Below, one piece after another: positions 3 to 56,300 of a DNA stretch of 64,000 nt (the stretch's first letter is position 1; every line of letters begins with the position of its first letter). The stretch covers positions 1 through 64,000 of the IMG/VR virus record IMGVR_UViG_3300042691_043547. One strand, written 5' to 3'. The DNA comes from a virus. Made by a program: the position numbers and the translations under genes. The notes beneath the pieces are model-generated. The model was not told the origin of the DNA. It made no database searches and saw only the letters and a program-made list of their open reading frames with translations.

Positions 3-263
3 GAACCCGTCAAGTCTGTTTCGACCAATCAGTTCAAGGACGACTTGTCTCTTGAAAAGAGCCACATAGCCACCGACAAGAAGCTGAACCGGAAGATGCG
101 TCCGGCAGCCCGCAGACCCCCGTCGCAAAACCAGAGGATGGTTGATGTGGTCTGTCCCAAGTGCAACAGGACACATCAGGTTGCTGCCGTCCAGGCGGCG
201 CTGCGACGCGAGATCGATTCCGGGGTGGTTTGCGCTGGCTGTCTGAAGAGGGGAAGGTCATGA
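3..263 (+). CDS. C-terminal part of a small zinc-knuckle protein (5' end outside window)
   Basis: The frame is open from the left edge, so the real start lies outside and 86 residues are visible. The visible part is basic and carries two Cys pairs, VVCPKC and VVCAGC, about 29 residues apart, which is the layout of a small zinc-binding knuckle. A TTG at 45 could start a 72-residue version, but no convincing Shine-Dalgarno precedes it. Its TGA overlaps the helicase start as ATGA (260-263), so it is co-translated with the replication genes. I do not recognise the family; a nucleic-acid-binding accessory role is inferred only from position and the Cys pairs. Confidence 0.6.
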   Translation, partial: EPVKSVSTNQFKDDLSLEKSHIATDKKLNRKMRPAARRPPSQNQRMVDVVCPKCNRTHQVAAVQAALRREIDSGVVCAGCLKRGRS

Positions 264-1711
264 ATCAGGATCCGGCAGCGGAGAGGGCCGTTCTGGCGGC
301 TCTTCTCAAGGGGGGCCACGAGGCCTGGGTGGATGTCTCCGATGTCCTTTCGGCAGACTGTTTCAGTTGCGGCACCAATGCCGTCTATTACCGTTGCCTA
401 GAGAAGGTTCTGGCAGAGCCAAACTCCAAGGCCGACATCCCCTCCATCGTGTCGGCGGCTGGCACTTTGGGATTTGCGGACACATTCAAATCCCAGGAAG
501 AGCAGAAGTACCTGCGGGCTTTGGCGGTCACTCCGGTTGAACCATCCAATTTACGCCGGTTGGCTGCACGCCTGGTGAAATTGCACAAGGCCAACGAGTT
601 CTCGGAAGTGATGAAGGAGTCAGCCCAGAAGCTGGCGAATATTTCCGGGGACGAGACGCTCGGGGAAATTCTGGGCATCGGCGAAGAGGCCGTCTTCAAT
701 TTCGTCGGCAATCTGGGCAACCAGTCGGAAAGCCTGGCGCACATCTCCAAGGATCTGGACGAGTACATCGACTATCTGGCGGCGAATCCGTCAGAGGTCA
801 TGGGAATCAGCTCGGGTCTTCCTCAGTATGACGCAGCCATTGGCGGGGGATTTCAGCGCGGGACAGTCAATGTGATCGGTGCCCGCCCCAAGACTGGCAA
901 GACCCAATTGGCAGACAACATCGCCCTGCATGTGGCTTCCAAGCTAAACATACCCGTGCTCAATCTGGATACGGAGATGTCGGCCAAGGAGCATTGGCAT
1001 CGCATGTTGGCGAACATGGCCAATGTCACTGTGGATGATGTGAAGAGCGGGAAGTTCGGCGCCGACGAGGTGAAGTCCAAGGCGGTCTACGAGGCCAAGG
1101 AGAAGCTCAAGAATATCCCCTACCATTACGCCTCCATCGCCGGTCAGCCGTTTGAGGAGACGGTCGGGTCGATGCGTCGGTGGCTGTATCGGCATGTCGG
1201 GTTTGATGAATCCGGCCAGACCAAGCCGGCACTCATCGTGTTTGACTACATCAAGTTGATGGACGATCGCAGCATCACCAAAAACATCTCGGAGTTTCAG
1301 GCGCTCGGTTTCCTGATGACCAACCTGCACAATTTTGCAGTGCGTTATCAGGTGCCCGTCTTGGCTTTCGTCCAGCTGAACCGGGACGGGATCAATGCTG
1401 AAGATACCAGCACGGCCAGCGGTTCCGACCGGATCATCTGGCTCTGCTCCAATTTCAGCATTTACAAGTGGAAATCGCAGGAGGAGATGGCCGAGGAGGG
1501 GGTTGGTCCGGACGGTGTCAGGTACAACCTGAAACTGATTCCGGTCGTTTCAAGGCACGGGAAGGGGTTGGATGGCGGGGATTACATCAACATTCAGGGG
1601 CAGTACGAATATGGCAGACTCAAGGAAGGACCGACGCGGAACGGACTACTCCGGAGCAGGCCCACGCGGTCAGGCTTCGACAATCCCCCCCAAGAGTCCG
1701 CAGAATTTTGA
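260..1711 (+). CDS. dnaB: DnaB-family replicative DNA helicase
   Basis: A 483-residue replicative helicase that would unwind the phage DNA fork as a ring. The N-terminal helical domain begins with the typical AERAVLAALL stretch. The RecA-like motor follows: Walker A GARPKTGKT at residues 207-215 and a Walker B strand ending LIVFDYIKL with Asp329. Length fits DnaB (about 450-480). The ATG at 260 overlaps the previous stop (ATGA); an open extension back to 161 lies inside the upstream gene and was rejected. It heads a run of replication genes and its 3' end overlaps the primase start. The C-terminal tail is rich in Arg and Ser and poorly conserved. Confidence 0.93.
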   Translation: MNQDPAAERAVLAALLKGGHEAWVDVSDVLSADCFSCGTNAVYYRCLEKVLAEPNSKADIPSIVSAAGTLGFADTFKSQEEQKYLRALAVTPVEPSNLRRLAARLVKLHKANEFSEVMKESAQKLANISGDETLGEILGIGEEAVFNFVGNLGNQSESLAHISKDLDEYIDYLAANPSEVMGISSGLPQYDAAIGGGFQRGTVNVIGARPKTGKTQLADNIALHVASKLNIPVLNLDTEMSAKEHWHRMLANMANVTVDDVKSGKFGADEVKSKAVYEAKEKLKNIPYHYASIAGQPFEETVGSMRRWLYRHVGFDESGQTKPALIVFDYIKLMDDRSITKNISEFQALGFLMTNLHNFAVRYQVPVLAFVQLNRDGINAEDTSTASGSDRIIWLCSNFSIYKWKSQEEMAEEGVGPDGVRYNLKLIPVVSRHGKGLDGGDYINIQGQYEYGRLKEGPTRNGLLRSRPTRSGFDNPPQESAEF

Positions 1712-2732
1712 GCGACTACGGAAAATAGCCGCCGCAGCCACACAGAAGATGGAGACTGTCCTTGACGCCCTTGGTCTTGAGTACAAGCCCGCCGAAAACT
1801 CTTTCTTCACATCCTGTCCCGTGCATGGTGGCGACAATCCGACCGGCTGTCGTGTCTACTACAACGCCTCAATGGGCTATTGGCAATGCTTCACCCGCGG
1901 GTGTGAAAAGGTTTTCCGGGACGACACTTTCGGGTTCGTCCGGGGCGCGCTTTCCCGCCAGCGTTACGGATGGGTGACCGAGGGTGACAAGGTAGCCACG
2001 GTTGTCGAGACCGAGAAGTTCTTGTCTGCCCTGTTGGCGATCACTCCAGGTGCTGACATTCCTCAGGTGGACAAAAGCCAGCGGGAATTTGTCACGGCCA
2101 CCCGCATCATGCAGGTTGAAAGCGGGCCGGTCGGCAAATGGGGGCGCGATCTGGTTCGATCCAGAATGGAAATCCCCAGCAAGTTTTTCCAGGGGCGCGG
2201 ATTTGGCCAGGAGGTCTTGAACCATTTTGACATCGGCGACACGAGACAGGGGCCTTTCGCTGGCCGGGCTGTCGTTCCCGTCTATGACTACACGGGTCGC
2301 ATGGCTGTCGGCTTTTCTGCCAGGGCTATCGGGGACATCCAGCCAAAATGGCGTCATTCCGAGGGATTTTCCCGCTCACGCGTTCTTTACAACCAGTTCA
2401 CCGCCTTTCGGGACGCCCGCCGCAACGGCACCATCATCCTGACCGAAGGCCCCTGTGATGTTTGGCGCCTTTGGGAAGCCGGTTATCACAATGCAGTAGC
2501 ACTGTTTGGTGTCGCCCTGAGCGACGCCCAGCAAGTCCTTCTGGAGTCTTCTGGCGCAAGTCGGGTGATTGTCTTCCTGGATGACGATGAGGCTGGCCAG
2601 ACTGCTTCACAGAAAATTGTCGGTCAGCTTTCCCGATCTTTTCGTGTGATTTCTGCCCGGGCTGGCAAGGGTCGCGACCCTGCCGATCTGTCTGTTGACG
2701 AAGTGAAAGAGATTTTAGGGAGACTCAAGTGA
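1572..2732 (+). CDS. dnaG: DnaG-type DNA primase (CHC2 zinc finger plus TOPRIM)
   Basis: Primase that would make RNA primers for the fork, next to its helicase partner. A zinc-binding set near the N terminus (Cys82, His85, Cys106, Cys111) fits a CHC2 finger. The TOPRIM part has the catalytic Glu at IILTEGPCDVW (Glu293) and the acidic strand VIVFLDDDEAG (Asp338-340). At 386 residues it is shorter than cellular DnaG and has no obvious C-terminal helicase-binding domain. The start is uncertain: ATG 1572 follows a GGAAGGGG sequence but overlaps the helicase by 140 bases; ATG 1611 and ATG 1749 are alternatives. The first 50 residues look unstructured. Confidence 0.88.
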   Translation: MAGITSTFRGSTNMADSRKDRRGTDYSGAGPRGQASTIPPKSPQNFERLRKIAAAATQKMETVLDALGLEYKPAENSFFTSCPVHGGDNPTGCRVYYNASMGYWQCFTRGCEKVFRDDTFGFVRGALSRQRYGWVTEGDKVATVVETEKFLSALLAITPGADIPQVDKSQREFVTATRIMQVESGPVGKWGRDLVRSRMEIPSKFFQGRGFGQEVLNHFDIGDTRQGPFAGRAVVPVYDYTGRMAVGFSARAIGDIQPKWRHSEGFSRSRVLYNQFTAFRDARRNGTIILTEGPCDVWRLWEAGYHNAVALFGVALSDAQQVLLESSGASRVIVFLDDDEAGQTASQKIVGQLSRSFRVISARAGKGRDPADLSVDEVKEILGRLK

Positions 2733-5805: not shown

Positions 5806-5847
5806 GGGTAGGGGTTGGTTTTTGTCTTTCAGGGGTGGGGGTTGTCA

Positions 5848-7773
5848 ATGAGTTGGGTTCCGCTGCATTGTCATAGCATGTATAGCTTGCTTGATGGGCT
5901 TAGCAAGCCTGATGCTATTGCTAGCAGATGTGAGAAGTTGGGCTACAAGGCTTGTGCGATCACTGATCATGGCACGCTTTCTGGCGTCGCCGCTTTTTCC
6001 AAGGCTCTCCGCAAGAAAAACATCAAGCCGATTCTTGGATCGGAGTTTTACCTTTGCTCTGGACCCGCACACGACAAGCGTCCTGAGAATGGCTCTCTGT
6101 CGCATCTGTGCGTGCTGGCAAAGGGGGAGGAAGGATGGAAAAGGCTTGTGCAGGCCTCGAGCGACTCCAATGACCCCAACCATTTCTATCGTAAGCCTAG
6201 GCTGGATTTGGAGTTGCTGGCAAAACATGCGGATGGCAAGTTCATTGTTTTTTCTGGACATCCCGGTAGTGACCTCTGCAATGCGCTGTTTGAAAATCCG
6301 AAAGCTGCCTACGGCTGCCAGACATACGAGCAGGCTCGGGCCATGGTGCCATCAGACTGGGAAAAAAGACTGCTTACAGTTACAAACCGTTACAAAAATC
6401 TTTTTGGGGACGAAAATTTTTGGATTGAGATACAAGCGGTTGACCAGGACAACCTTCCAGCTGCTGCGGTGACGGTGAAGGCGTTGCGTCATTTTGCCAA
6501 AAAGCACAACATCAAGACGCTGGCTACTCCAGACGCACATTATCCAGCTAGCGAAGATGCCGCAGACCAGAGGGTTTTGCTTTGTTCTGCTATGCAAACA
6601 ACTTTGCCAACGATACATTCAGCATTAGCTAAGCAAGAAGATGTTTCTCTTGGTGGTTTTTTTAGGTCTAATCGTTATCACATTCCAGATTTTGATGAAG
6701 TCAAAGGCCTGCATCTCGGCCCTGAGATTGAGGCCTCTCTAGAAATCAGCGAAATCTGCGGGGATTACGACATCCTTTCCAAACCACAACTGCCTGAGTT
6801 TGCCTGCCCCAATGGCATGGGGGCTGATGATTATGTCCGCCAACTTTGTCGTGAAGGTTGGAAAAAGAAGCTGAAACATGCTATCCAGGGCAGTCCTGAC
6901 TACACAACCTATGGTGATCGCATCAAGAAGGAGCTTGGCGTCATCACCGAGGCGGGCCTGTCAGCCTACTTCCTGATCGTGTCCGAGTATTGCGATTGGG
7001 CCAGGAGCCAGGGTTGGCTGGTTGGCAAGGGGCGCGGTTCGGGCGCAGGATGCCTTGTCAGCTACCTGCTCGGAATCACCAATGTCGATCCGGTCAAATA
7101 CAATCTGCTGTTTGAGCGTTTCTACAATGCGGGCCGCAACCAGCCTGGGCGGGTGTCGTTGCCAGACATCGATTGCGATTTTCCCATCTCGCACCGCGAT
7201 GAAGTTGTACAACATATGCGGGATCGTTACGGCGAAGACCGCGTTGCCCAAATGGTCACATTTTCAAGATTGCAGGGGCGTGCAGCGATCAAGGATGTTT
7301 TACGCGCCCATGAAAAAGGCACTTTTGATGAAATCAACAAAATTACCGAGCATATTCCTGACGAGGCCGCTATCTCCGACGAACTCCAGGAAATGCGCGA
7401 GGAGACCGGCGAAGCCTCCATCTTGATGTGGGCGCTGGAAAACAATGCCAAGGAGCTTTCGCCCTGGTGCCGGGTCAACGACAGCGGCCAATTGGAAGGA
7501 CCGCTGGCCGTAGAGTTTGCCCAAGCTATCCGTCTTGAAGGAACCAAGCGAAACCAATCAAAACATGCCGCAGGTGTGGTCATTGCGCCTAGATCGTTGG
7601 CCGACTGCTGCCCTATGGTATTTGACAAGTCTACAAACCGTCGCATTTGCGGTGTGGAAATGTCTGACTTGGAAGCCATGGGTTTCGTCAAGTTTGACAT
7701 TTTGGGGGTTGCGGCTCTCGACAAGATGCAAGGGGCCATTTCTTTGTTGAAGGGGGGATCTGTCCGTGTTTGA
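5848..7773 (+). CDS. dnaE: DNA polymerase III alpha, N-terminal part: PHP domain and catalytic palm (split DnaE)
   Basis: A 641-residue N-terminal piece of a C-family replicative polymerase. It begins with a PHP domain (His7 and His9 in LHCHS, ITDHG, GSEFY, PDAHY), then the palm with GRGSGAGCLVSYLLG, the catalytic PDIDCDF (Asp440, Asp442) and the third Asp (Asp617) in VKFDILG. About 20 residues later it stops, just where DnaE would continue into the fingers; that remainder is a separate gene at 8709. ATG 5848 follows an AGGGGTGGGG sequence. The split is a true stop with a new gene starting over it, not an obvious sequencing frameshift, because two further genes lie between the halves. Confidence 0.9.
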   Translation: MSWVPLHCHSMYSLLDGLSKPDAIASRCEKLGYKACAITDHGTLSGVAAFSKALRKKNIKPILGSEFYLCSGPAHDKRPENGSLSHLCVLAKGEEGWKRLVQASSDSNDPNHFYRKPRLDLELLAKHADGKFIVFSGHPGSDLCNALFENPKAAYGCQTYEQARAMVPSDWEKRLLTVTNRYKNLFGDENFWIEIQAVDQDNLPAAAVTVKALRHFAKKHNIKTLATPDAHYPASEDAADQRVLLCSAMQTTLPTIHSALAKQEDVSLGGFFRSNRYHIPDFDEVKGLHLGPEIEASLEISEICGDYDILSKPQLPEFACPNGMGADDYVRQLCREGWKKKLKHAIQGSPDYTTYGDRIKKELGVITEAGLSAYFLIVSEYCDWARSQGWLVGKGRGSGAGCLVSYLLGITNVDPVKYNLLFERFYNAGRNQPGRVSLPDIDCDFPISHRDEVVQHMRDRYGEDRVAQMVTFSRLQGRAAIKDVLRAHEKGTFDEINKITEHIPDEAAISDELQEMREETGEASILMWALENNAKELSPWCRVNDSGQLEGPLAVEFAQAIRLEGTKRNQSKHAAGVVIAPRSLADCCPMVFDKSTNRRICGVEMSDLEAMGFVKFDILGVAALDKMQGAISLLKGGSVRV

Positions 7774-8056
7774 TGAAGAATCAGAAGAAGCTGGACTTTC
7801 CAAGCGTATGGTTGCGCACAACCTGGCCCTGCTTGATGCTCTTGCCGAGGCTTCTGAAGCCAAGAAGCGCATGGCTGAAGAGATGGGGAATGTCATCAAG
7901 GCGATCCTGATCAAATTCGGGGGCGAGATCACTTTGGATGGCACCTTCATCGCCGCTGCCGAATCGCCGACCTGCACTTTGAATCACGAGATTCTGTCCA
8001 ACGGCGAAGCCCTGCGTTTTTGGGTTGAGGAAGTTGAAGAGGGGGACGACGAATGA
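7766..8056 (+). CDS. Unknown small acidic protein inside the split polymerase locus
   Basis: A 96-residue acidic, mostly helical protein with no motif I recognise. The GTG start at 7766 overlaps the end of the polymerase N-part by 8 bases, and its 3' end overlaps the exonuclease start (ATGA), so all four genes of the locus are likely co-translated. The middle (EAKKRMAEEMG) looks like an amphipathic helix; the C terminus ends VEEVEEGDDE. Its conserved-looking place between polymerase parts suggests a polymerase accessory or bridging role, but that is inference only. Confidence 0.65.
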   Translation: MFDEESEEAGLSKRMVAHNLALLDALAEASEAKKRMAEEMGNVIKAILIKFGGEITLDGTFIAAAESPTCTLNHEILSNGEALRFWVEEVEEGDDE

Positions 8057-8709
8057 CCAACAACATCATCATCTGTTTTGATTTTGAGACCGGCGGTTTG
8101 GACATCAAAACCACCGAGCCGATTGAGATTGCTGCGGTCGCCATCAACCCCAGGACGCTGTCGGTGGTGCCGGATGGCACCTTCTACAGCCTGTGCAAGC
8201 CGACCGATTTCTCTCTGCTGCAAGACCAGGCGTTGGCCGTCAACGGCAAAACGCGTGATCAGTTGAAGGCGGCTCCCGAACAGGAAGCGGTCTGGCGTTC
8301 ATTCTGCTCGTTCATCAAGCGTTTCAACCCGAAGGGAAACAGTTTCACGACGGCCCCCATAGCCGCCGGAAAGAATATCCGCGCCTTTGATTTGCCGATC
8401 TTCAGTCGCCTTTGCGCCAAGTACGGCTTTGCCGACAAGAACGGGGATCAAAACCTGTTCCATCGTCGGAAGGTCTATGACCTAGAGGATTTGCTTGAGT
8501 TCTGGTTTCACGACTCCGAGGAGTTGCCGGATCGCAAGATGGATACCTTGCGCAGGTATTTTGGATTGAGCCGGGACGGGGCGCACTCGGCCATGATTGA
8601 CACGAAACAGACAGCGGAGTTGATAGTGCGTTTCCTGAAGGTTCATCGCTATTACGCCGCCAAAATCCCGTTCCGCGGTGCGTGCGCCAAAAACTCGGTG
8701 ATCATCTGA
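8053..8709 (+). CDS. DnaQ-like 3'-5' exonuclease (DEDDh family)
   Basis: A 218-residue exonuclease, probably the proofreading partner of the split polymerase. Exo I is FDFETGG (Asp10, Glu12), Exo II is GKNIRAFDLPIF, and Exo III has the His-x4-Asp of the DEDDh class (His178, Asp183 in HSAMID). This matches the epsilon subunit of DNA polymerase III. It lies between the two polymerase genes, overlapping the unknown gene upstream and the polymerase C-part downstream (TGATG). Proofreading as the role is an inference from the family and position. Confidence 0.87.
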   Translation: MTNNIIICFDFETGGLDIKTTEPIEIAAVAINPRTLSVVPDGTFYSLCKPTDFSLLQDQALAVNGKTRDQLKAAPEQEAVWRSFCSFIKRFNPKGNSFTTAPIAAGKNIRAFDLPIFSRLCAKYGFADKNGDQNLFHRRKVYDLEDLLEFWFHDSEELPDRKMDTLRRYFGLSRDGAHSAMIDTKQTAELIVRFLKVHRYYAAKIPFRGACAKNSVII

Positions 8710-10340
8710 TGGCCGAGCATCACATGCCCTGCGGTTGTTCTTGGCCCGTTGTCGGCGATCCACCACGCCAGGGGGCATTGCCGCTTCTTGATGTCGATGT
8801 CGCCAGCCTGCCGGATTGTCATCTGGCCTGGGATATCATGTCGATCGGCAACACCAAGGGCGTGTTCCAACTGGAGAGCCGGTTGGGGGCGACTTGGTCG
8901 AAAAAACTGAAGCCCAGAAACGACGAGCACCTTTCAGCCTTGGGCGCCCTCTTGCGCCCCGGCTGTCTGGCCGCCAAGGACGAGAACGGCATCAGTCTGA
9001 CCGAACACTACTGCCGTCGCGTCAACAAGGAAGAGCCTGCTGACTCGTTCGACCCCGCCTTGGATGACATCCTCGGGCCTACCGAGCAGATTCTGGTTTA
9101 CCAAGAGCAGTCGATGCAGATCGGGGCCAAGCTGGCCGGCTTCGACCTCAAGCAGGTGGACCGTCTGCGCAAGGCAATCGGCAAGAAGGATCAGAAGGAG
9201 ATGGCCGAGGTCAAGCGGCTTTTTCTGGAGGGTGCTGAAAAAGTCAAGATTGTCTCCATGGATATAGCAGAAACTATCTGGAGTTGGATTGAGAAGAGCG
9301 GGCGCTATCAATTTAATAAATCTCATAGTATGAGTTACGGGTTGACCGGGTACGACACCGCCTACCTCAAATCCCATTTCCCGGTGCAGTTCTACACCTC
9401 GTGGTTGGCGTTTGCTGAGGACAAGGTTGATCCTGACCAGGAAGTCATGGAGTTGGTCGAGGATGCCCGCAGAGCGGGAATCACCGTGTTCCCTCCGGAT
9501 GTGCGTCACAAACAGATGATTTTCTGGACGGACGGAGTCGACATCTATTTTGGCTTGTCCAACATCAAGGGGCTGGGGCAGTCGAATCTGCACAAGTTGT
9601 TTGAGGTCATGGACAAGGCCGAGCAGTCTCTGGCCAAAAAAGCCACGGATTTTACCTGGATGGAATGGCTTGTGCATGTCGCCGCAGAAATCCCCTCCGT
9701 CAACCACAAGTTGATCATGGCCGGAGCCTTGGATTGGACCGGAAGAAAGCGTCAATTGATGCTGGCCGAGATTGATGTCGTGGCTTCGCTCACCAAGAAG
9801 GAGCAGGCCTGGATTCTCAAGAATTGCAATGGCGACGAGCCTTTTGTGGATGTCCTGCGTCGTCTGGCCAAACCCAAAAAGGAAGGGGGCGGCGTGGCCA
9901 ATATCAAGCGTGGTTCGCTGGTGAACGGCCAGGCCACCCTGCTGGAGCATCCGCCGACCCCGTTGAGCGACCATCCGGCGTGGATGGCGTGGGCCGAGGA
10001 GCAGGTCTTCGGATTCGCTCTGACCTGTTCTCGTGTCGACGGCTGTGATTTGGGTGATGCGAACACGACCTGCGGAGAATTCCTGGCGGGCAAGACCGGG
10101 TTCCTGCTGCTGGGCGTTGAGGTGCGCGGCGTCAGGTCGTTCAAGACAAAGAAGGGAACCATGATGGCGTTCCTTTCTCTATCGGATTCGTCCGGGATGC
10201 TGGACGATGTGGTGTGTTTCTCTGAGCCTTGGGAGGAGTACAAACACCTCCTGACTGAGGGGAACACGGTTTTGGTGCAGGGCGAACGAGACCCCAAGAA
10301 AGGTTCGTTGGTCGTGCGCAAGGTTTTTCAGATGTCATGA
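8709..10340 (+). CDS. dnaE: DNA polymerase III alpha, C-terminal part: fingers, HhH and OB domains (split DnaE)
   Basis: A 543-residue C-terminal piece of the replicative polymerase. After a short leader with a CGC motif it enters the fingers at NTKGVFQLESR and LGALLRPGC, keeps the dNTP-binding region (GRYQFNKSHS near residue 200) and ends with an OB fold (VRSFKTKKGTMMAFLSLSD, VLVQGERD). The palm aspartates are absent and sit in the 5848 gene, so it cannot polymerise alone. ATG 8709 overlaps the exonuclease stop (TGATG). No intein-like residues are seen at either edge of the break. Confidence 0.88.
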   Translation: MAEHHMPCGCSWPVVGDPPRQGALPLLDVDVASLPDCHLAWDIMSIGNTKGVFQLESRLGATWSKKLKPRNDEHLSALGALLRPGCLAAKDENGISLTEHYCRRVNKEEPADSFDPALDDILGPTEQILVYQEQSMQIGAKLAGFDLKQVDRLRKAIGKKDQKEMAEVKRLFLEGAEKVKIVSMDIAETIWSWIEKSGRYQFNKSHSMSYGLTGYDTAYLKSHFPVQFYTSWLAFAEDKVDPDQEVMELVEDARRAGITVFPPDVRHKQMIFWTDGVDIYFGLSNIKGLGQSNLHKLFEVMDKAEQSLAKKATDFTWMEWLVHVAAEIPSVNHKLIMAGALDWTGRKRQLMLAEIDVVASLTKKEQAWILKNCNGDEPFVDVLRRLAKPKKEGGGVANIKRGSLVNGQATLLEHPPTPLSDHPAWMAWAEEQVFGFALTCSRVDGCDLGDANTTCGEFLAGKTGFLLLGVEVRGVRSFKTKKGTMMAFLSLSDSSGMLDDVVCFSEPWEEYKHLLTEGNTVLVQGERDPKKGSLVVRKVFQMS

Positions 10341-10349
10341 GGTGAATTC

Positions 10350-10772
10350 GTGAACAATTGCATTTTTATTGGGAACTTCGTCCGCGACCCCGAGCTTCAG
10401 AATGTCGGGGCCGAGCACCGCGTGGCAAAATTTGCCATCGCTGTCAACGGTGGCCGCAAGAACCGCAACGGTGAAGAAGAGGTTGCGTTCATTGAGTGCG
10501 AAGCCTGGGACAAGTCGGCTGACACCATCAGCAAGTATATGAAGAAGGGGTCTAAGATCGCCATCCAGGCGACCGCCCGCACCGACACCTGGACCGACAA
10601 GTCGAGCGGCACCAAGCGTTCGACCCTGAGGTTCCGGGTTAACAACTTCACCTTCCTGGGTGGCAAGGGCGCCGACACGAAAACGGGCAAGGCGGTGGCT
10701 GCCGGTGTCGGAGCCGAGGACGAGGGCGTCGGTTTTGCCAGCGGTGCTGACGGCGAAGAAATCCCCTTCTGA
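10350..10772 (+). CDS. ssb: Single-stranded DNA-binding protein
   Basis: A 140-residue SSB. An OB fold starts with CIFIGNFVRDPEL and continues FAIAVNGG, VAFIECEAWDKSAD and GSKIAIQATARTDTW, all typical. A flexible Gly/Ala-rich tail ends in EEIPF, the acidic tip that binds partner proteins. The start is GTG 10350, nine bases after the polymerase stop. It coats ssDNA at the phage fork and in recombination. Confidence 0.9.
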   Translation: MNNCIFIGNFVRDPELQNVGAEHRVAKFAIAVNGGRKNRNGEEEVAFIECEAWDKSADTISKYMKKGSKIAIQATARTDTWTDKSSGTKRSTLRFRVNNFTFLGGKGADTKTGKAVAAGVGAEDEGVGFASGADGEEIPF

Positions 10773-31602: not shown

Positions 31603-32201
31603 TAATTGCCTCCTATAGTCAGATCAAGAGAACCGGTGCCCACGCCAGTACCCGCCGTGATCATGGCCAGCGACCCGCTGCTTCCAGCCGGACCAGCCAA
31701 ATACAATACGCAGCCAGCACTGGCTTCCTGGGCATAGCCGGTCACCGTCAGCGGCAACATGGAAAAGGCTTCAGGCGTGCGCCAGACCACGAGATTCAAG
31801 CCGGTGCCGAAGACTGGGGCTTCCAAAATCAACGGCAATGCGTTTTCCACCAATTCGGTGGCACTATTGACTGTCACCAGAGACAATGAACCCGAAAGGT
31901 TCTTGTTGGCTCCTTCGACAAACAAATTCATGTTTTGTTGGCTATCAGATTTATTACACAAGATATATAAATTTAACCCCTTGCCATAAGCCTTACCACT
32001 AACGACTAGGGGGAGCGTGTTGGCGACGCCGGAAAATACGCCAAGGGTGTGGAGTGGCAGCGAATTCCCACCCGAAGGTATCTCGGTGACCTTCAGGAAC
32101 AGATTCAACGACTCCCAGGAAAGCGACTCGCCGCCAAACCCGAGGACTAGTCCCCCGGGTGTGGCGAGTATGTCCCCCAGCCTGCCCGTGAAGACACTCA
32201 T
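31602..32201 (-). CDS. Structural protein with beta repeats
   Basis: A 199-residue protein built of short repeated strands: NTLPLVVSGKAYGKGLNLYI, NALPLILEAPVFGTGLNLVVW and MLPLTVTGYAQEASAG share the pattern LPL-x3-G...GLNL, about 60 residues apart. It looks like a beta-solenoid or repeated sandwich. ATG 32201 overlaps the tape measure stop; a GTG at 32204 would add one residue. Directly downstream of the tape measure gene is where distal tail proteins usually lie. Confidence 0.6.
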   Translation of the reverse strand: MSVFTGRLGDILATPGGLVLGFGGESLSWESLNLFLKVTEIPSGGNSLPLHTLGVFSGVANTLPLVVSGKAYGKGLNLYILCNKSDSQQNMNLFVEGANKNLSGSLSLVTVNSATELVENALPLILEAPVFGTGLNLVVWRTPEAFSMLPLTVTGYAQEASAGCVLYLAGPAGSSGSLAMITAGTGVGTGSLDLTIGGN

Positions 32202-35200
32202 CACTGCGCCCTCTGCTCAACCGGCTGACTATCCCGGATTGCCTGGGCGATCATCGGCCCGATAGCCTCGGTGACCGCCTTGACGATGGAATCCTGGCCC
32301 ATCAGGTTGACCACGATGTCGTTCGCCCCAGACAGTTCGATCTGGCCTGGAATCTTGCCCACCGCCTCGTCGAACTTGTCCACAAAGGTGCCGAAGTTGG
32401 CCACGGCCCCGTTGAAGGTACTAACCGAGGTGGAGAAGCCGGACAGCCCCTGGCTGATCTGGGTGGCAGCCTGGTTGAAGCGGGCGGCGACGTCGAGAAG
32501 GTCAGGCCCGCCCTGTGCCATTCCTCCGTTGGCGAATCCCTGGATGCCGCCCACCACGCCGCCGTTGGCGAATTTCTGGACCTGTCTTTTGGGCACGACT
32601 AGTTCGCCTGGCTCCAGCAAGGCGGGGACGGTATCTCCAGACCCAACGCCAGGCACTATGCCGCCCGTAGCTCTTTTAACAATGTCTTTTTTGTCAAGAT
32701 AAGGAGAATCTGCCAGTCGAGCATACATCGCAGCATGTATTGGGTTGCGATTGAGGCGCTCGTTGCTTTCTCTATTAAGTTCTTTCAGGCGATTTTCAAC
32801 AAATCCCTTATTCTTTTCATCCCATTCCTTCTGCATTTTTGGCATGTTTTCTTCGTAGGTCGGGGCGTGGGCAAAGACCCGACCTTCAAACTCTTGCCTT
32901 TGCTTATCTTTCTCTGCGTAAAACTTCCTTAGTTTTTCTGCTCCACGCTTAACTCCACCTGGATCTCTAATGTCCTCAATGCCTTCTCGCACATGCCAAC
33001 GAGCTATTTCATTGCCATGTTCTTCGCTTTGTTTTTTGGCGCGATAGTCATCCATCTTGCGTTTGGCTTCAGCTTCTTCTTCAGCCCGAACCTTTTCAGG
33101 ATTTTTTATTTTGTTAATTTCTTGGAGATAGCGTGGATCGCCAGTTTTTAGATAATTTTCTTGGGCAATTTCCAACATCTTTTTAAGATGATTGGCTTCT
33201 GCCTCTTGACGATTTGGTTCGGCTTTATTTTGACCGTTAGCTCTAACTCTTGCGTTGTGGGCTTCGACTGGATTTGAAGCGGATGCCATATTTTCGTTAG
33301 CAAGAGCGGGATTGAGACGCAGCAGGCCACCCTGCAATGGATCGTTCCCGGCAGCAATAAATTGCTGTTGCTGTTTGATTTGTTGATCTTTTTGGGCTGC
33401 TGCTGCCGCTCCTCTAAGTGCGCGAGGATCAATGAACCTAGCAGCATAGTTCATTTGATTAAGTTGTTCTTTAGCTGCTACACGTTCTTCCATTGAGGCT
33501 TTGGTGTTTGCCGCCAACGCCCGAAGTTCTTTCGACCGAGCGATAAAGGCTTTTGGATCCTGCTGAAAAGAAGCGAATGCGTCTTGAGCACCAAGCATTT
33601 GACGCTGCGCATCCATTTGTGCAACTAACGGATTGGTCAAAGTTGCATATAGTTGTCGAAATTCAGCAATTTTTTCTTTGGTTCTATTTCTTGGATTTTT
33701 TAGTTCGTCACGAAGAGAGAAAAATTTAGCTTTGGCACCCGTGATTCCGCCATTGCCACCAATCATTTGGTTCATCGCTTCCATAGCGAGGAACTGTTGT
33801 TCATTTAGATTGCCATTATTATTGTTTGCTAAAGGATTGACTGTATTTTTAACAGTTTGCGGTTGGAACCCCATTTGAATATTTCGGTTCCCGCCCCACT
33901 TCGCAGCGCCAGCAGGAACCAAATTGTATTTGACTCCGTTGATGACAACATCGCCACCTTCTGCATATCCTGGTAATTTTCCGGTAGAGTTAATATGGTC
34001 GAGATTGTTTTTCCCAATCTTGGAAGCTTCGCTTGGCGTGAAAATGTGTTCGCCAGGCATAACCATGGCTGGAACAACCCCGCCCCTAGCCATGCGAGGA
34101 AGAGCAGCTAAGGTGTCAGCACCCAATTTTTGAACGGAAGACTTGCGGACAACATAGCTGCCTACCGGCAAATTGGCTCGGACAGAGTCAGTATTACCAA
34201 CACCAGGCACCAGACCCCCAGAGGCAAATCCAAGAAGACCTTTGCCAGATTTGAATGCTTCAATTAGTCCGTTTGCGACACCAGGCCCTAAAACAGCTTG
34301 GCTAATAGCAATAGCATTTTCCTTTTGGCTCAAAAAATCTTGCTTAACTTTTTCAGCTTCATCAAGTTGTTTTTTGTTTTTTAGGCTTCTGTCCTTAAAT
34401 ACATCAGAGGCCTTTGGTAAGGTGGTGGGTGCACCATAAGCACTAGCTAGAATCTCAAGAAGAGCAGCGTCTTTGGCATAACCAAAAGGACCTTTGTCTT
34501 CAGATTTCTTTAGCATATTGTTGATTGCGCCCGGGTTGGAAGTTATCCACATCCCGATTCGATTTAAGGTCATCGCATTTTTTCGGCCATTAACTTCATC
34601 AAGGGCAGCTGATCGGCCTTCTGCGTCCACAGCAATGAGATAAGCTGCCTTCTCTGCTGAACTCAAACTGTCTGGGTCTTCATTAAATTTGCCTTGAGAT
34701 TGAGCGGCAATTTTGCCCATTAGAACATCTAGAGCTGCTCTTTGGATTAGGGTCATTTTGTTGCGGTTTGCAGCGTAACCGCGAATTTCATCTCCCGTTA
34801 CATCTTCGGTGGAATTAATAAGCTTGTCCAGCCCCATAGCAGTCATTTGGGCTTGTTCAGCAGGACTCAACTTATTTTCAAGTATGCGACGCCTTTTAAT
34901 CTCCAAAAGCTTAGTTTGAACAGCAGGGTTCAATTTATTAAAGGCATCGGCTTCCATGGCCATAAGCTGAAGCTTCATCAACTCCATATCTTGTTTAGGG
35001 CCAAACTGAGCATTATTGCGCTCTTCAAAAATCTTAGCGATACCTTGCTCTGGGGTCTGCAAAGAACCAATTCTACCTTGCTGAATTCCTTTTACCAAGT
35101 CATTAGCTTTAGCAAGCTTTTGACCTTCTGCTTTTTGATTTGCTAAATCATTTTGAGCCTTATCAATAAGGGCCGAAATCGTTTTTTCAAAATCAAAATC

Positions 35201-38200
35201 TAAACCAAGCTTTTTGGTTCTATCTGTTTTTTTGGCCCACGCATCCATGTCTCCAGAAAATTCATTCGGGGAAGTAATTGCTAGACGCTGAAGGGCGTCG
35301 CCATAAATTTTACCAAAAATTCCAGGAGGATAATATTTTTGAAGTATTTTTGTGTCAATTTTTCGTTTTTCTTTTTCTTGCAATTCGCCAATTACAGGCA
35401 AGTTTCCAATTTCGTTATAGTCATTTGCAAAAATGACACTTGATGTCCAATCTTTTGCAGTTTTAGCATATATTTTTGTGTCAGTCCAAAGAGATTCAAA
35501 TTCTCTGCGGAGAGGATCAATATCCCCCAAAAGTTTTAACGCTCCATCTTCGTTTAAGGTATTTGCCATACGATCAACATTATTAAGGAATAAATGCCTT
35601 TTCAAATCTGGCTCTGATTGAATTATGTCATTCAAGCTAGAACCAATTCCAATTTTAAATTTATCATTAACATTATTTGTGAAAATTTCAGCTTCTTTTC
35701 CTACTTCGATAAACTTCTTTACTGCCTCATATATTTCCGAAACGCCGACTTCAATTTTAGTCGGTAGGGTTTTTATCGCCTTTGCGATTCCCATTTTTCT
35801 TTTGCCAACATGATAACTTTCAAGGTCTCGGAAATTTAAAGTTTTATTTTTTTGATCTTCTATTGACATTAATTGAGCTAGGGCGTTCTTGATGCCAAGT
35901 TGCTCATCTGTTTCCTTGCCAGAAATAGATTTGATCCAATCTTTTTGCTTGTTGACAAATTTAAATCGCTCATCAGGCTTCATGTTTCTGAGCTGAAGAA
36001 GGAAAAGAATTTCTGAATTTGCGCGAGCCACTTTGCGAGCTTGCTCGGCAGCCTCCATAGTTTTTACAGGATTTATAATATCCGTAGTATCTGCTCCAAT
36101 ATTTTTTTGTGCGTTAGCAATATTATTTCTGGCTTCTTCAACCGTTCCACCATCTGCATATCCGGCGTTTATTTTCTCTAAAAGCTTTTTGTTTCTTTGG
36201 GCAGGTCCTGCCGCAACAACAAATTCACTAGGGTTAATTCTGGCGTTTACGGTATCAGAAGAATGGGGATTGAGACTGCCGCCCGAACCCCAGCCGCCCT
36301 TGTTGAAATAACGAACCATACCGCCGTTAGCTCTTCCTTCGGGCCTAATAGCTAAGACTTCACCAAATCCCTGGACTTGTTGTCGCGCCTGATCAAGAGC
36401 GCCATTCAGTTCAGAGAACTTTTTGTTCGTGTTTCCGACAGCAGAAACAGATTCGCGCAATGTTTTGACGGTGATGTTGTCTCCTTCTTCCTTTGCGGCT
36501 TTAATAAGATTATCAATGATTTTGTTATCGATGGTGCCTTGATTGCGCAAATCTTTTCCGGCTTGAAAAATATTTGAATTTGTTCGTTCGTTGGATTCTT
36601 TCTGGTATGTGGTAATTGCGTAACGGAAAGCTTCTGCAATATTCTCTTTGTTGCCGCTAAGAGTCGAAAGATATCCCGCTTTCGCATCCATGCTTTCCGA
36701 AAATAATGAAAGCAGTTTTTTTTGGTCAACGGCAGAAGTGAATCCCATGTCACCAAACTTATTCATCAGGATGCCAGAGACATCACTTTTTGCAGTCCCT
36801 CGAGCATAATCGTTGCCTGCTAAAGCAACAATATCATCAACAAAACTATTGGTATTGCCTAATGCCTTATCGGTTTTGCCTTGGACAATTCGTTGGTTCT
36901 TTCCAGCCTCAAAAATAGCATCAATACTCTTATTTTTTGGATCGTTCAAAGTATCTTTCAAGGCTTTGAACTGATCATCGGTTCCAACTCCGATTTTACC
37001 AAGCATGGAAGACTGGCCAACTTGTTTCTCCAAGCCCTCCAGACGACTTTGTGCCTGCATCTGAAGGCTTTCCCGCATGAGCTTTTGATTTTCCATCATT
37101 GCTCGGGAAAGTTCATTGATAAAAGTTTGCTGGCCAGCTTGAAGTCTTGAGAAAAAGTCTGCTTGCAACTTTTGTTGCATTTCAACTTGAATGCGTGATG
37201 CTTCAACAGCAACATCATAATTTGATTGAACAAAATTATCCAAAGCGCGCTCAAGAGCTGCCGTTTGAGGATCAAGGTCAAATGCGCCCCCAAAAGTTGT
37301 TTTCATAAGTTGAGTGGTCAAATCCTTGACATTAATACCACCCAAACCTGGCAATTTCATTTGGGGCGACAACGAAGAAAGCAGACCAAAGATTTGATTT
37401 TGTTGTTTTGTCGAGAAAGTCGCCGCAGTCCCCATGCGGGCAGCAGCCGCAAGCAACCTGAATGAGGATGCTATTTCTGCTCGACCTTCCGTATTTGCCG
37501 TGGCGTAGCGAAGCCCAAGAGCCTGCCTGCCTTCACGGTCAGATTGAATTTTGGAAAGTTTCTCCTGGGCTTGGGATGTCCTTTCGGAAACATCCGTCAG
37601 ATGCTTTAGGGCTTGGCCGAGTTCGGCGGCTTTGGTTTTAAGGGATGACAGTTGAGTGATTGCCGCATTTTGTTCGGCAATGTTGCCACCCTTTGTTGCC
37701 TTGGCTATCTGCTCTTCCGTTCGACGAATTTCGTCAAACACCCCACCCATGGCACTAGCAATAAATTGGGGATTTCCGGAACCGGGTCCGCCAAAACCAG
37801 TCAACCTTTGCTGCCTTGCTTGTTGTAGGCCTTGATTCATGTTGAAGAGACCTGCGTCAGCAGCGTCTTCAGAAATCAAACGCCTTTTGAGTCCAACCTG
37901 GATGCGATTACGCACCGAAGCCATTTCGGCCATATTGGCCTTGTCCATCAACTCTCCGGTGGCGCGTGTCCTGTTGGCGAGTTCCGACAAGCCTTCCGCA
38001 AACATGCGGCCACGCTCATCGAGGTTCTTGGCGATTTCAGTAAAAGATTGCTTAAGAGGTTCGGCCATGGGGCCAAGGAGCTTCTGGATAACCTTGCCCA
38101 TATCCTGGCCGGTTTCACGAAGCATTTTACTGAAATCTTCTGACCCCAACTGACTAGAGACCATGTTTGTAACCATGGCCGCAGAAGTATTATCGACCCC

Positions 38201-41200
38201 GCGGGCAGCAAGACCTTTGCGAAGGTTTTCCCCGATTTGAACGCTCATGTCGGCTCCGGTGGCCAAATTGGCGACCGGTTGAGAACGCACGGCGTTTATG
38301 ATGCCAGGCAAAAGACGTCCGGCAACGGTGACAGCGTCAGCAGTCTTTTCTGCGTCTCCACCCGCTACACCAGCAGTCTTTGTAATAGAACGAACAGCCC
38401 CCATAAAATCTTCACGGTCGGAACCAAGTGGTCTTTGGAGGGATTCTGTTAAGCCAGAACCAGAGAACGGAGTTGTGCTGCCATCCATAAAGTCGGAAAC
38501 ATTTTTAAGGGACGCAGTCATCCGTGTTAATCGTTGAGTGGCAACTTCAACCGCAGAAGACAAACCGCCAAATGTGGCAGCGGAACGATTAATGTCAGTT
38601 TCGGAAGTTTGTTGTCGGCGTTTAAGAACCTCACTTTCTTTGGTTTTTTGGAACATATCAAACAGGGTTTTTCGGAACATCTCAGGGTCTTGTTCCGTGG
38701 CGGTGGCTACCCTTGAAAACAAGCGAGAGCCAATACCACCATTTTGAGAAAGGGCGGCTTCAAAATCTTTGCGAAGTGAAGCCGTATCTTGAATGTCTGC
38801 ATTACCAGTATTACGAACGGCTTGTTCCTGCACTAATTTGGTTAGTGCGTCCATCATGGAGGCGGCTTGACCAGCCATTGCCTCCCGCATATTCTTTGTT
38901 AATTCAGTTTGGAAGTTTTCCTGAGACCCAGAAACTAAACCAAAAAGATAGGATGTATTTCTTCCGGATTTTGCGGCAGTTTCCCGATCAATTGTGTTAA
39001 AATTACCCTCAATAGTCTTAGAGTTTTGAGGGGTAAGGGCATAAGTGCCTTTGGCAAAGTTGGAAAGCGCATCGGTTGTTTTCTTGAGAGCTAGTCCGAT
39101 TTTAGCTTCAGAAATCTCTTGAGCAGCTTCTTTGAAGGAATTAACAAGACCAAAAAGGCCACCTGTCGCAGCACCGATACCAGCTCCGAGAGGACCAAAA
39201 GCAGACCCAACCTGAGCGCCCGTAACAAGGCCAGACAATCCACCACTAAGCACTCTGGCGGTTTTATAAGAACCCTCTCTGCCGTTGACGGCGGCATTGT
39301 CAGCACTTCCAGCAACATTTGACAATGCGTCCGACACATAACTGGCAATTACTTGACCACCCAAAAATCCAGATTGAGAAGAAAAAGCATTACCCAATAC
39401 GCCTTTTGTAGAATTTAAAGCATTTGAAAACTTCTGTTTTAGGCCACCGCCGTAACCTTGCTTTAAGGCTTCGGCATCAAGCAACCTGTTATTTTTGACA
39501 ACGATTTCCGCACCGCTGCGTAGTGCGTGTTCAAACTTTTGAGTGGTAAGAAAGCGAGCGGTTTCTATATCTTTAATTTGATTTTGTTGTTGGACTTGTA
39601 GACTTACGCTGTCTACATACCGTTTCATGACATTGTTTTTGGCGTTTTCGGAGATGTCTTTTTTCTGGGCATCGCTTACATTTTTGCCACGACCTTTAGG
39701 GTCGATGACATCGTACATTTTTTGTATTTCGTCATTTAGTATTTTTCCAAGAGTATTTTTATTAGGATTGGCTCGTGGCGGGATAGTGCCTGCGCCGTAG
39801 GCAGCTTCAGCCCCACGGAAATTGACCTTAACCTGGCCAGAGGCATCGGTGGAAGTAGATATGCCAATTCCTTGGAGTTTCTCTTGATTTTTTTCAAGGA
39901 TGGCTCTTTGACGAACTTCCTCGGCTGCTGCTCCGCGGGCATCGCTTTCATAGCCAGAACGATAACCTTTAAGTAGGTCACGAGCCGACTTTGTAGACGA
40001 TACACGCCCGGATTTGCTAATCTTACCCAGTTCTTTGAAATCAATACCTTCGTTATCTGCAATCCTTTTGGCTATTTCCTGACGGGTTGTCGTTAATCTT
40101 TTTGCTTCGGCAACTGCTTCGGGGTCAAAGTCAGCTCTCTTTTGAAGTCGGTTTATGTTCCGGCTTAACTGCATGTATTGATCGATATCGCCGGCCCGAC
40201 TTGTTGCCTGAGTGCGAATATTACTGACTTGGTTGAGGCGCTCCTGAGCACGGCTAACCTGTTCGGCCGCTTTCATGATGCGGGTTGTCTGCATCGCAGC
40301 AACCTTTTGAACTCCCTTTTCATTCATTCCGGGATTGTTGGTTCGCAAATTCTGTCCAATGGCCTCTTGCAACATTTGAGGCCGATAACCGCCGACTTTA
40401 CGCAATTCACCCAAGAACTGAATTGACTCCGCACCCGAAAATTGTGGCATTTCGGTGGAGTATGCTCCGATCTGATTGCCGGTTTTCATCGCTGATTCGA
40501 TGAGTTCCCGGTATTTCATTTCGGATTTGAAAGCAGCGTAGCCACGCCTTTTTTTAGGGGGCGGTGGAGGGGGTGGAGAAGGAGGACTAGGTGGCAGATC
40601 AGAAGGAGTAGGAGGGCTAGGAGGACTTCCACCACCATCAGTAGGAATGGAGCCTTTGCCAGGAGGTCCACTGCCATCTAGCCTTCCAAAATAATCATTA
40701 AAATCTCGATATTCCTTGACGGAATTAAATCCCCAATACCTTGCTTCTTTTAATTCAGCATATACCTTAGAGTTATAAGCTTCATAACGCTTACGATCTT
40801 CCCTAGTGAGGCCTGGAGGCGCAACACGGGTGCCGGTTATTTTGTCAGTAGCCTTACTTATCGAAACAGTTGCCAATTCATTAGCAGCAATACCTGTGGG
40901 CAAAACAGCTTTGTGGCGTTCTGCGCGTCCCTGATTCATTCTTTCGGTAATGGCATGGGCTGCCAAATACCCTTGGGAGTTTTCTGGAAAAGTGCCGCCA
41001 GGCGTCTTTTCGTTACTGAGAATTTCCCTAATCGGTTCTTTTACAATGACTTCCGGTTTGGCCGGAAGCCCTTCTTTTTTCTTGCGTTTTCCACGAACGG
41101 GAGCAATTCCTTCATCACGCATGGCCTGCCGGACATCGCGTTTGGCGTCTGCTTCTCGCTTTGCGTCCATTTCGGCCCTGCGCCGTATGAGGTACTCACG

Positions 41201-53098: not shown

Positions 53099-53365
53099 TT
53101 AGACCTTCGTCACCGTGACTGTTATACCGGAAGCGGTGGGTACTACTGGTCCCGTGAAGGGAATGACAATCGTGGTACTTGATTTGACCACGGGTTTTGG
53201 GGGCGTCCTCGGCGGGGGCGCTGGCGGGTTGGTTGGGCTTCTTTTGATAACCCCCGTCGAGGTTCCACCTGGGTATACCGTAATGGGCGTGCCCGGCCCT
53301 TGGGCGGGACACCCCTGTACACCGCTGTTCGGACGCCTTTTGCACCGACGAGTAATTCCAGCCAT
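53099..53365 (-). CDS. Proline-rich small protein between fibre genes
   Basis: An 88-residue protein starting MAGITRRCKRRPNSGVQGC, with a Pro/Thr-rich middle (SPTNPPAPPPRTPPKPVV) and a hydrophobic end (TIVIPFTGPVVPTASGI). ATG 53365 overlaps the long fibre's stop (TGATG). Likely a flexible connector or adhesin part; the family is not recognised. Confidence 0.55.
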   Translation of the reverse strand: MAGITRRCKRRPNSGVQGCPAQGPGTPITVYPGGTSTGVIKRSPTNPPAPPPRTPPKPVVKSSTTIVIPFTGPVVPTASGITVTVTKV

Positions 53366-56300
53366 CAGTGGACTCTCCAGCATGGGTTATTCTGACCACC
53401 AACGAGACCCCCGTCCGTCCCGTCGTAGATCAGTTCGGCATAGTCACGCGGGGCGAGAACGATATCCACGGCCTGCACACAGCAGAACCGATTGGCGATT
53501 GCGGAACTGGTGCTGTTGTGCTTCAGGGTGAGATTGGCTGTGCCCACATTGTAGATACGCATCATACGACCATCGATGTGGGAACCGCTGGGCGGGGCAA
53601 CGCCCGTCAGGTTGCAGGCGGTCGTGCAGTTCAGCCTCTGGAAGGCGCTGCCATTCAAAACCAAATCGTTGGTGGGAGCAGAAATGTTGGTGGTGTTGCT
53701 CTTGTACGCAAGCGATCCACCGCCAGTCGAGCCGTTGGTTACACTCAGTACCCCGACCCCATCCCGCCTTAAACCGATGTCGCCGTACCATGCGATATGG
53801 CCGTCCTGACGCATCCAGATGTAATTGATGTTATCAGTGCTGGTGCCGTTGGAAGAACCAAGCTGAACACTTGCTCCAAATGTTGAACGCAAAGTAGTTG
53901 AAGAAAGATAAAAAGAGCCAGCAAAAAGGGCAGAAGTATTTACAGTTCCCAACCCTCTTATGTTTGTGCCGTTGAAATTGATACCGCCAGTATTAACATC
54001 ATTGGAAATACCAACCAAACCAATGTCGAGCGCAGAAGTGCTGGGTGCAATATAAAAATACTGAGCGGTATTGGACGGGTTAATAAACCGGATCGACCCG
54101 TTCCCTCCCGTGGTCGCTTGCGCACCTGGCTGAAGGATAATCGACCCACCAGCACCACTGGTGGAACCATTATTCGCAAGGATGGTAAGACTCACGCCTG
54201 CGCCAGAAGTGTAGGGATTTGGTGCTGGCGAAATTGTTGGGTTTAGATAGTCGCGCCCATACAGATAACCACTTAAAGCCGAAGTACCTGTGCCGGTGCT
54301 TTCAGTAATGCCATTAGCCGTGCCTATGCTTCGGATGACACAATAAAATGTGCCAGCATCAGTACCAATAGTGCGTTTAATCCTAAACATCGATTGATAG
54401 GTATTAAACTGCAAGGTTTCTAGCTCAAATCCCAAACTAGAATTATCTTGGCTGTCAGACACCATGTTTGGAGCTACAACACCATTTTGAATTCCCCAGA
54501 CGGTCGAATATCGATACTTCTTTGTCAAGGTACGAGACGTACTGTTTATGGCATGTAACTCAATCTCGACAGTTGTCGCCACATTACCTTGAACATAGAA
54601 TATTTCGCGATAATTACCGACAACGGTTGGAATTGATCCTGTGAAATATCTCTGTCGTGTTAAAGAACCCGTATATTGCTCGGCATTAGCGGTAGTGGTT
54701 AGCGTTCCTGTAAAAGAACCGGAGTGCGTAGCATTTATGACGCCAGACGCATCAACACTTGCAAGCACAGTCCCACCGCTGTTCTGCCACTCCTGCAAGT
54801 TCGCACTCTGCGAGGCTGCGCCACGAACAATCAGACCTTTAGTTGCTGCTGCCGACGGGACAACCAACACCTGTGCCCCAGGTGAACTATTGGTGCCAAA
54901 CGACATGCCATCCAGAATCCAACCATTTCCTCCAGCGTAAATTTGGCAACGAATTGTTCCGTTGTGCATCAACTGAAGAAGACCGTACTCATTACCACCT
55001 GTGGTTCCCGAGTTACTGTTACTGCTGCCAGTTCCAAGTACCGCAATTTGTTGAGCCGAGTTAATCGAGCCATCAGGCGACTTGTAAATGGTGATTTGGG
55101 GGGTGGCGGCATTACCAGCAATAGTCAAAAGCTTGTCAGGCACTTTTGTGCCAATGCCAACATTGCCGTTGCCGCCCAAAATACGCATACGCTCTGTTCG
55201 CGCAGATGGGTCGCCACTGTTTCCAGTCTTGAAGTACATGTCCCATCTGGCACTGCTGCTGTTGTAGGTTCCAGCAATGTCGGCAAAGCCGACAGAAATT
55301 AGACCAGCATCGCCGTTGGACCAGAAAGATTTGTGGCCAAAATTCGCAACGCTTTCTTCAAGACCGCCTTGAGCGCCATCGCCAGCTTGTAGGACATTTA
55401 ATTTACAAGCAGAGCTAATCCATGAACGCGCACTACCGGTGCTATCTTGCCACTCTTGTAGGTTGACGCTCTGCGAGGCTGCGGCACGGACAACCAAACC
55501 TTTTGTTCCAGAAGCTTGTGGTGCAATGTAAACTTGCCCACCACCAGCAGCAGTTGTTGCGCCGACAGCCAGAGCGCCACCAGTAAAATAACTGGTTCCG
55601 TTCGGATTTAGGCTCACCCTCCACTGCGTGGATGTATTAGCGATATTAAACGAATTGTCTACACTATAAAGATATGCTGCATACCGATCAGATACTGAGA
55701 AATAGATACTTCCATCTGATCGCAGGGTTGGGTAACGATTAGCTGCATAACCAGGAAGGTCGCCAGTCAAAGCTAAATAGGTTCCATCACCGCCACCTGT
55801 ATAGCCACTAGAACGAATCGCCCCAACAACATGTAGTTTTGTGGCTGGCGAAGATGTGCCGATACCAACATCACCACCATTTGGCTGAAGAACAACATTA
55901 CCAAAGTTTGCGCCCCATCCAGAAGCATTAAAGCCCGTTCCGCCCTGGATGAAAACCCGTCCGCCGATCTTCCCGGTCGTATTATCGGATTTGCCACCCA
56001 ACAACATGATATCGCGGCCATTTCCTGCGCCCTGATCAGATGGAGTCTGGCCACCCGCTCCCCAAGGCATCAGGACAACACGACCCGTGTAATACTCTCC
56101 AAATTGAATAAGGTTGGTTGTACCAGTGCCAGCAGTCGCCGTTCCACCGTTGCCGCCATCAGTGAACAAAGCCGTCAGGCGGGCGTGGGTTTGGGTATCT
56201 GGTTCGTAAGTCGGCCAAGCCGCAACAGCGGTAGCCACCGCAGTAGTAGGACGGGTGACATGTAGTGGGGCCGCAGGTCCCGAAGGGAAATAGGTTGTGC

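Follow-up and report, generated by a model that had tools for sequence, protein, structure and literature searches.

The stretch of viral DNA examined here (the window: 64,000 nucleotides, positions 1 to 64,000 of the IMG/VR record IMGVR_UViG_3300042691_043547, which is 69,421 bases long) carries a run of four plus-strand genes in which a DnaE-type DNA polymerase III (Pol III) alpha subunit is divided into two halves, with the gene of an epsilon-like nuclease between them. We find that this is a real and widespread split of DnaE at the junction of palm and fingers, and that it has a single origin.

Genes of the split polymerase

The first half, alpha-N (5848..7773, plus strand, 641 residues), comprises the PHP, palm and thumb parts of the polymerase and contains GRGS and all three catalytic aspartic acid residues (D440, D442 and D617), the last of which is followed by only 24 residues; a TTG at 5815 provides an alternative start upstream of 5848. 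The second half, alpha-C (8709..10340, plus strand), has 543 residues when read from the ATG at 8709, with a GTG at 8682 as the alternative start, and contains the fingers (KGVFQLES), helix-hairpin-helix (HhH) and OB parts. Between the halves lie a small gene of 96 codons (7766..8056, plus strand) and EXO (8053..8709, plus strand, 218 residues), a stand-alone DEDDh 3'-5' exonuclease (D10, E12, D113, H178 and D183) predicted to be an epsilon-like proofreader. This arrangement had been read from the DNA alone in an initial annotation, and the open reading frames (ORFs), their translations and the Pfam matches bear it out: alpha-N matches PHP (4.8e-34) and DNA_pol3_alpha (3.8e-72), EXO matches RNase_T (5.5e-21), and alpha-C matches DNA_pol3_finger (9.5e-33), HHH_6 (8e-7) and an OB domain (1.4e-5). 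The source record contains one Pol III palm match.

The four genes are tightly packed. Alpha-N and the 96-codon gene overlap by 8 nt (7766..7773, plus strand), and the latter overlaps EXO by 4 nt (8053..8056, plus strand, ATGA). The overlaps of 4 to 8 bases initially given for the whole run thus hold for these two junctions but not for the third, a TGATG stop-start overlap between EXO and alpha-C (8707..8711, plus strand) of 1 nt if alpha-C starts at ATG 8709 and of 28 nt if it starts at GTG 8682. The TGATG junction is consistent with coupled translation, as had been proposed; co-translation is not a requirement, however, given that some relatives have the halves separated by 5.8-10.5 kb. A scan for promoters and terminators returned nothing above chance with bearing on the split.

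When aligned with the single-chain DnaEs of phages and with E. coli DnaE, alpha-N ends at about residue 575 and alpha-C resumes at about residue 588 (E. coli numbering); the break thus follows the last helix of the palm and precedes the fingers, in the linker where it had been suspected. The AlphaFold2 model of alpha-N (mean predicted local distance difference test score, pLDDT, 92) ends with the strand bearing D617, a helix (622-634) and a short low-confidence tail, and its best Foldseek match is Taq DnaE (2hpi, E 1e-45); the alpha-C model (mean pLDDT 92) matches DnaE chains with E 4.5e-22. Each half matches the same single-chain DnaE structures, and the polymerase core appears to be complete across both, with nothing missing. 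A PHP domain followed by a palm with GRGS and three catalytic aspartic acids, and then fingers, HhH and a C-terminal OB domain, is the order of a DnaE-type enzyme and not the PolC arrangement. Since an ordinary DnaE is a single polypeptide and this polymerase is not, we class it as derived from DnaE by splitting. A candidate internal beta-clamp binding motif (QATLL or QADLL) is present in the window and in near relatives but is not kept in most others.

Relatives and origin of the break

Related loci were collected from IMG/VR using alpha-N, alpha-C and EXO as queries. Two profile scans gave 157 loci, some contigs occurring in both, and in 146 of these alpha-N, EXO and alpha-C follow one another in that order as separate ORFs on the same strand; within this clade the two halves were fused in 0 of the 157. 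The remaining 11 mostly have one gene absent from the fetched stretch, or one half broken further. All sets pooled amount to 175 loci with 143 distinct EXO and alpha-C sequences. Relatives reach down to about 35% identity; at the other extreme, a 14.6-kb IMG/VR contig encodes proteins identical to those of the window, and several more contigs encode proteins 93-98% identical, all with the same layout. In about 90% of loci alpha-N ends 15-24 residues past the third catalytic aspartic acid, the median being 21; alpha-C begins a median of 47 residues ahead of KGxFQLE (range about 18-50). Whole-record searches of four records (that of locus L016 and three whose fetched stretch lacked one of the halves) returned a single palm match and a single fingers match per record, separated by 5.8-10.5 kb.

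A few loci depart from the common pattern. EXO lies upstream of alpha-N, the reverse of the usual order, in L111, at a contig end. The alpha-N half occupies two frames in L147:1969-5099, with a gap of about 790 bp, and in L154:3148-4930, where a frameshift is probable. In L279 and L285 (a Marinitoga lauensis contig) the Pol III alpha match is broken by several stop codons, possibly assembly indels.

Conservation was scored over 134 distinct loci. In alpha-N, GRGS is kept in 131-133 loci, the DxD pair in 131 and D617 in 132; KGxFQL of alpha-C is kept in 133-134. All five DEDDh residues of EXO are present in 134/134 loci, and a phenylalanine in its tail, perhaps part of a binding peptide, in 132/134. 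The metal-ligand histidines of the PHP domain, however, are kept in only 87-95 loci and have been lost in about a third. Such a pattern, with polymerase and EXO residues retained while PHP ligands decay, fits a functional polymerase whose proofreading may have moved to EXO. The pairwise distances of alpha-N, EXO and alpha-C are correlated (r 0.73-0.85), with EXO and alpha-C at r 0.85. A CGC...C motif at the N-terminus of alpha-C (window 8709-8820) occurs in 74/134 loci, its three cysteines being gained or lost together; His289 of alpha-N shows the same presence pattern, and the motif is possibly a metal site.

The split sequences form one clade (SH-like approximate likelihood ratio test, SH-aLRT, 100), with one change of state, in a tree of 21 split representatives, 18 bacterial C-family polymerases and 12 other viral DnaEs, a quick analysis under a simple model and without bootstrap. 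They group with DnaE-type polymerases, apart from PolC. Thus, the split looks like a single, old event.

In most loci the space between alpha-N and EXO is filled by one of three small gene families (60, 40 and 18 ORFs) without detectable mutual similarity. The 96-residue protein has homologues in 18 sampled relatives, unrelated small genes taking its place elsewhere, and it has no convincing match in Pfam, PHROG or PDB. Because three unrelated families fill the slot, a role of this gene as a conserved replicase subunit, which the initial annotation at most implied, is not supported, and it is unlikely to encode a general replicase component. HNH-endonuclease-like genes lie between alpha-N and EXO in L027 and L192.

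A proposed two-chain replicase and the alternatives

Taken together, we consider it quite likely that the phage encodes a replicase of its own in the four-gene run: a non-covalent, two-chain DnaE-like polymerase with EXO as its proofreader, arising from a single break and using the clamp and clamp loader of the host. Alpha-N and alpha-C would be made as two proteins and would assemble without a covalent link into an active polymerase, alpha-N providing the palm and the catalytic metals and alpha-C the fingers and the DNA-guiding parts. EXO, encoded between the halves, would serve as the proofreading subunit in place of bacterial epsilon. A large virus clade appears to have inherited the break from a common ancestor in which it arose a single time, after the final helix of the palm and ahead of the first element of the fingers; the clamp and clamp loader would presumably be supplied by the host. 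The multi-subunit replicase envisaged from the outset, an alpha pair with an epsilon-like partner, is therefore the best reading of the data, in which the parts are predicted to bind one another and EXO to proofread. With less assurance, but still on balance in favor, we suggest that this is an obligate two-chain C-family polymerase in a large monophyletic group of environmental phages, in which palm and fingers belong to different proteins that bind through their own contacts, possibly with the aid of EXO, and in which the halves could associate and dissociate. If the halves are separate chains, both pieces must meet for DNA to be copied.

In 16 records of 69-206 kb, Pfam gave no match to PolA, PolB, the beta clamp or delta'; the split polymerase is thus probably the only replicase of these phages, with clamp functions probably borrowed from the host. 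Several considerations weigh on the other side. Virus records may be fragments, so the lack of other polymerases or clamps in them is no proof. Most alpha-N proteins keep the PHP ligands, and the PHP domain could contribute nuclease activity there. The queries were themselves split sequences, with the best 80 hits taken per scan, so that the count of fused forms applies to this clade only and not to all phage DnaE. Finally, we found no cultured member of the clade.

An alternative that leaves the split polymerase as proposed is that EXO is an independent nuclease, involved for example in recombination or in the degradation of host DNA, and merely resides in the operon. Its sequence matches in PDB include exonuclease I, RNase T and other DnaQ-fold nucleases besides PolC-type epsilon domains, and the genes are scattered over several kb in a few records. 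We regard this as unlikely given that EXO sits between the halves in the great majority of loci, that its active site is invariant while the PHP domain decays, that it diverges in step with alpha-C, and that in the named phage Mansfield the genes of epsilon and alpha overlap.

Less probable again is that the module acts in repair or as an accessory polymerase and that the genome is copied by the replicase of the host or by some enzyme that escaped detection. In some jumbo phages a split Pol III alpha does accompany PolB (Iyer et al. 2021, PMC7824862), and the completeness of the records used here is not proven; yet neither PolA nor PolB was matched in the 16 large records, and genes for helicase, primase and SSB lie alongside.

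It is highly improbable that the halves end up as one chain, whether by programmed frameshifting, readthrough, RNA splicing or protein trans-splicing. Inteins do exist inside the alpha-C genes of relatives: L021:10864-12981, from a relative at about 70%, has an in-frame cis-intein between FNK and SHS, which is the cyanobacterial DnaE intein site, with a weak Pfam Intein_splicing match, and L063 has a second intein-like insert, with an HNH-like stretch, between RPG and C in the fingers. In the window this segment (RYQFNKSHS) is unbroken, as first noted, and the break lies elsewhere. At the break itself, the end positions of alpha-N and start positions of alpha-C leave no intein-sized extension in the loci, alpha-N ending in the palm helix and alpha-C starting shortly before the fingers motif, and Rfam revealed no group I or II intron. 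The two kinds of observation initially named as contrary to a split, a continuous gene in the clade and an intein or intron at the break, were thus looked for and not found. Moreover, whole genes separate the halves, alpha-N and alpha-C occur in all three relative frames among the loci, and the distances of 5.8-10.5 kb exclude frameshifting, readthrough and cis-splicing as joining routes. An assembly error or decayed pseudogene, a concern with any metagenomic source, is already refuted by the layout kept in independent contigs with identical or near-identical proteins and across 175 loci, with open frames and conserved catalytic residues.

Comparison with known polymerases and neighboring genes

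The phage enzyme shares with bacterial DnaE (E. coli dnaE, NC_000913.3, and Taq, 2hpi) and epsilon (DnaQ) the PHP-palm-thumb-fingers-HhH-OB order, GRGS, the three catalytic aspartic acids and a separate DEDDh exonuclease. Bacterial DnaE is one chain, whereas the phage form is two, broken between palm and fingers; alpha-C also ends after the OB fold, without the C-terminal region of about 100 residues (tau-binding) of E. coli alpha. Cyanobacteria likewise encode DnaE in two genes, but there the break is at an intein site in the fingers and the halves are trans-spliced, while here that site is intact and the break has no intein.

Among phages, Cellulophaga phage phiST (gp44/45) and Bacillus phage Jayan have DnaE in two consecutive or near-consecutive genes, and Microbacterium phage Chivey (gp57/58) in two neighboring ones. 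Unlike the present case, none has an exonuclease between the halves, and the break lies inside the palm, just before PDIDxD, in phiST and Jayan, and after the PHP domain in Chivey. In group 2.2 jumbo phages, a minimal Pol III alpha is split into nucleoside triphosphate-binding and Mg/template-binding parts in distant genes and is accompanied by PolB (Iyer et al. 2021, PMC7824862). These too are phage Pol III alpha homologues in two genes, but here both catalytic motifs are in alpha-N and no PolB was found, which does not agree with membership of that group; group 2.2 phage ME3, tried as a relative, had no convincing match to either half. Escherichia phage Mansfield (Wifcevirus) also couples epsilon to alpha through overlapping genes, although its alpha is one chain and its epsilon lies upstream.

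Split phage Pol III alpha was therefore already known, with other breaks, and the palm-fingers break is new: none of the matched PHROG families is bounded at it, no named phage has it among the records examined (a sample drawn from 1,344 DnaE-bearing phage records), and the literature yielded the jumbo-phage split but no report of this one. Breaks in phage DnaE fall at three or more distinct positions. Here the cut passes through the core of a replicative polymerase, where palm meets fingers, and it has survived deep divergence. This provides a natural two-part Pol III in which assembly, exchange and the control of proofreading are open to direct tests, as well as a means of recognizing a widespread group of viruses for which we found no cultured member.

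Two further candidate members were rejected. The match of Pseudomonas phage Y1 (OQ572403.1) is a single-chain, host-type dnaE beside lpxA/lpxB-like genes in an 'unverified' record, which probably contains bacterial DNA. Chryseobacterium phage MA9V-3 has a weak exonuclease match, and the neighboring 673-residue protein is not DnaE. A distant EXO homologue is encoded in Bacteroides phage DAC19 and relatives (MT074139.1, 146320-146895), about 14 kb from a single-chain DnaE, which suggests that the pairing of exonuclease and DnaE predates or is independent of the split. EXO homologues also occur on phage-like contigs (L198-L202) binned into Flavobacteriales, Chitinophagia, SAR202 and Lokiarchaeota metagenome-assembled genomes; these are weak and possibly misleading hints of hosts.

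Elsewhere in the window lie two very large ORFs (32201-43795 and 53365-58767, minus strand; 3,864 and 1,800 residues). The polymerase run belongs to a replication cluster that includes genes for a DnaB-type helicase (161..1711, plus strand, a long ORF from GTG) and a Toprim (DnaG-type) primase (1572..2732, plus strand, also a long ORF), the true starts of which may be further in. Directly 3' of alpha-C lies an SSB gene (10350..10772, plus strand), with a homologue in 109/134 of the relatives' loci.
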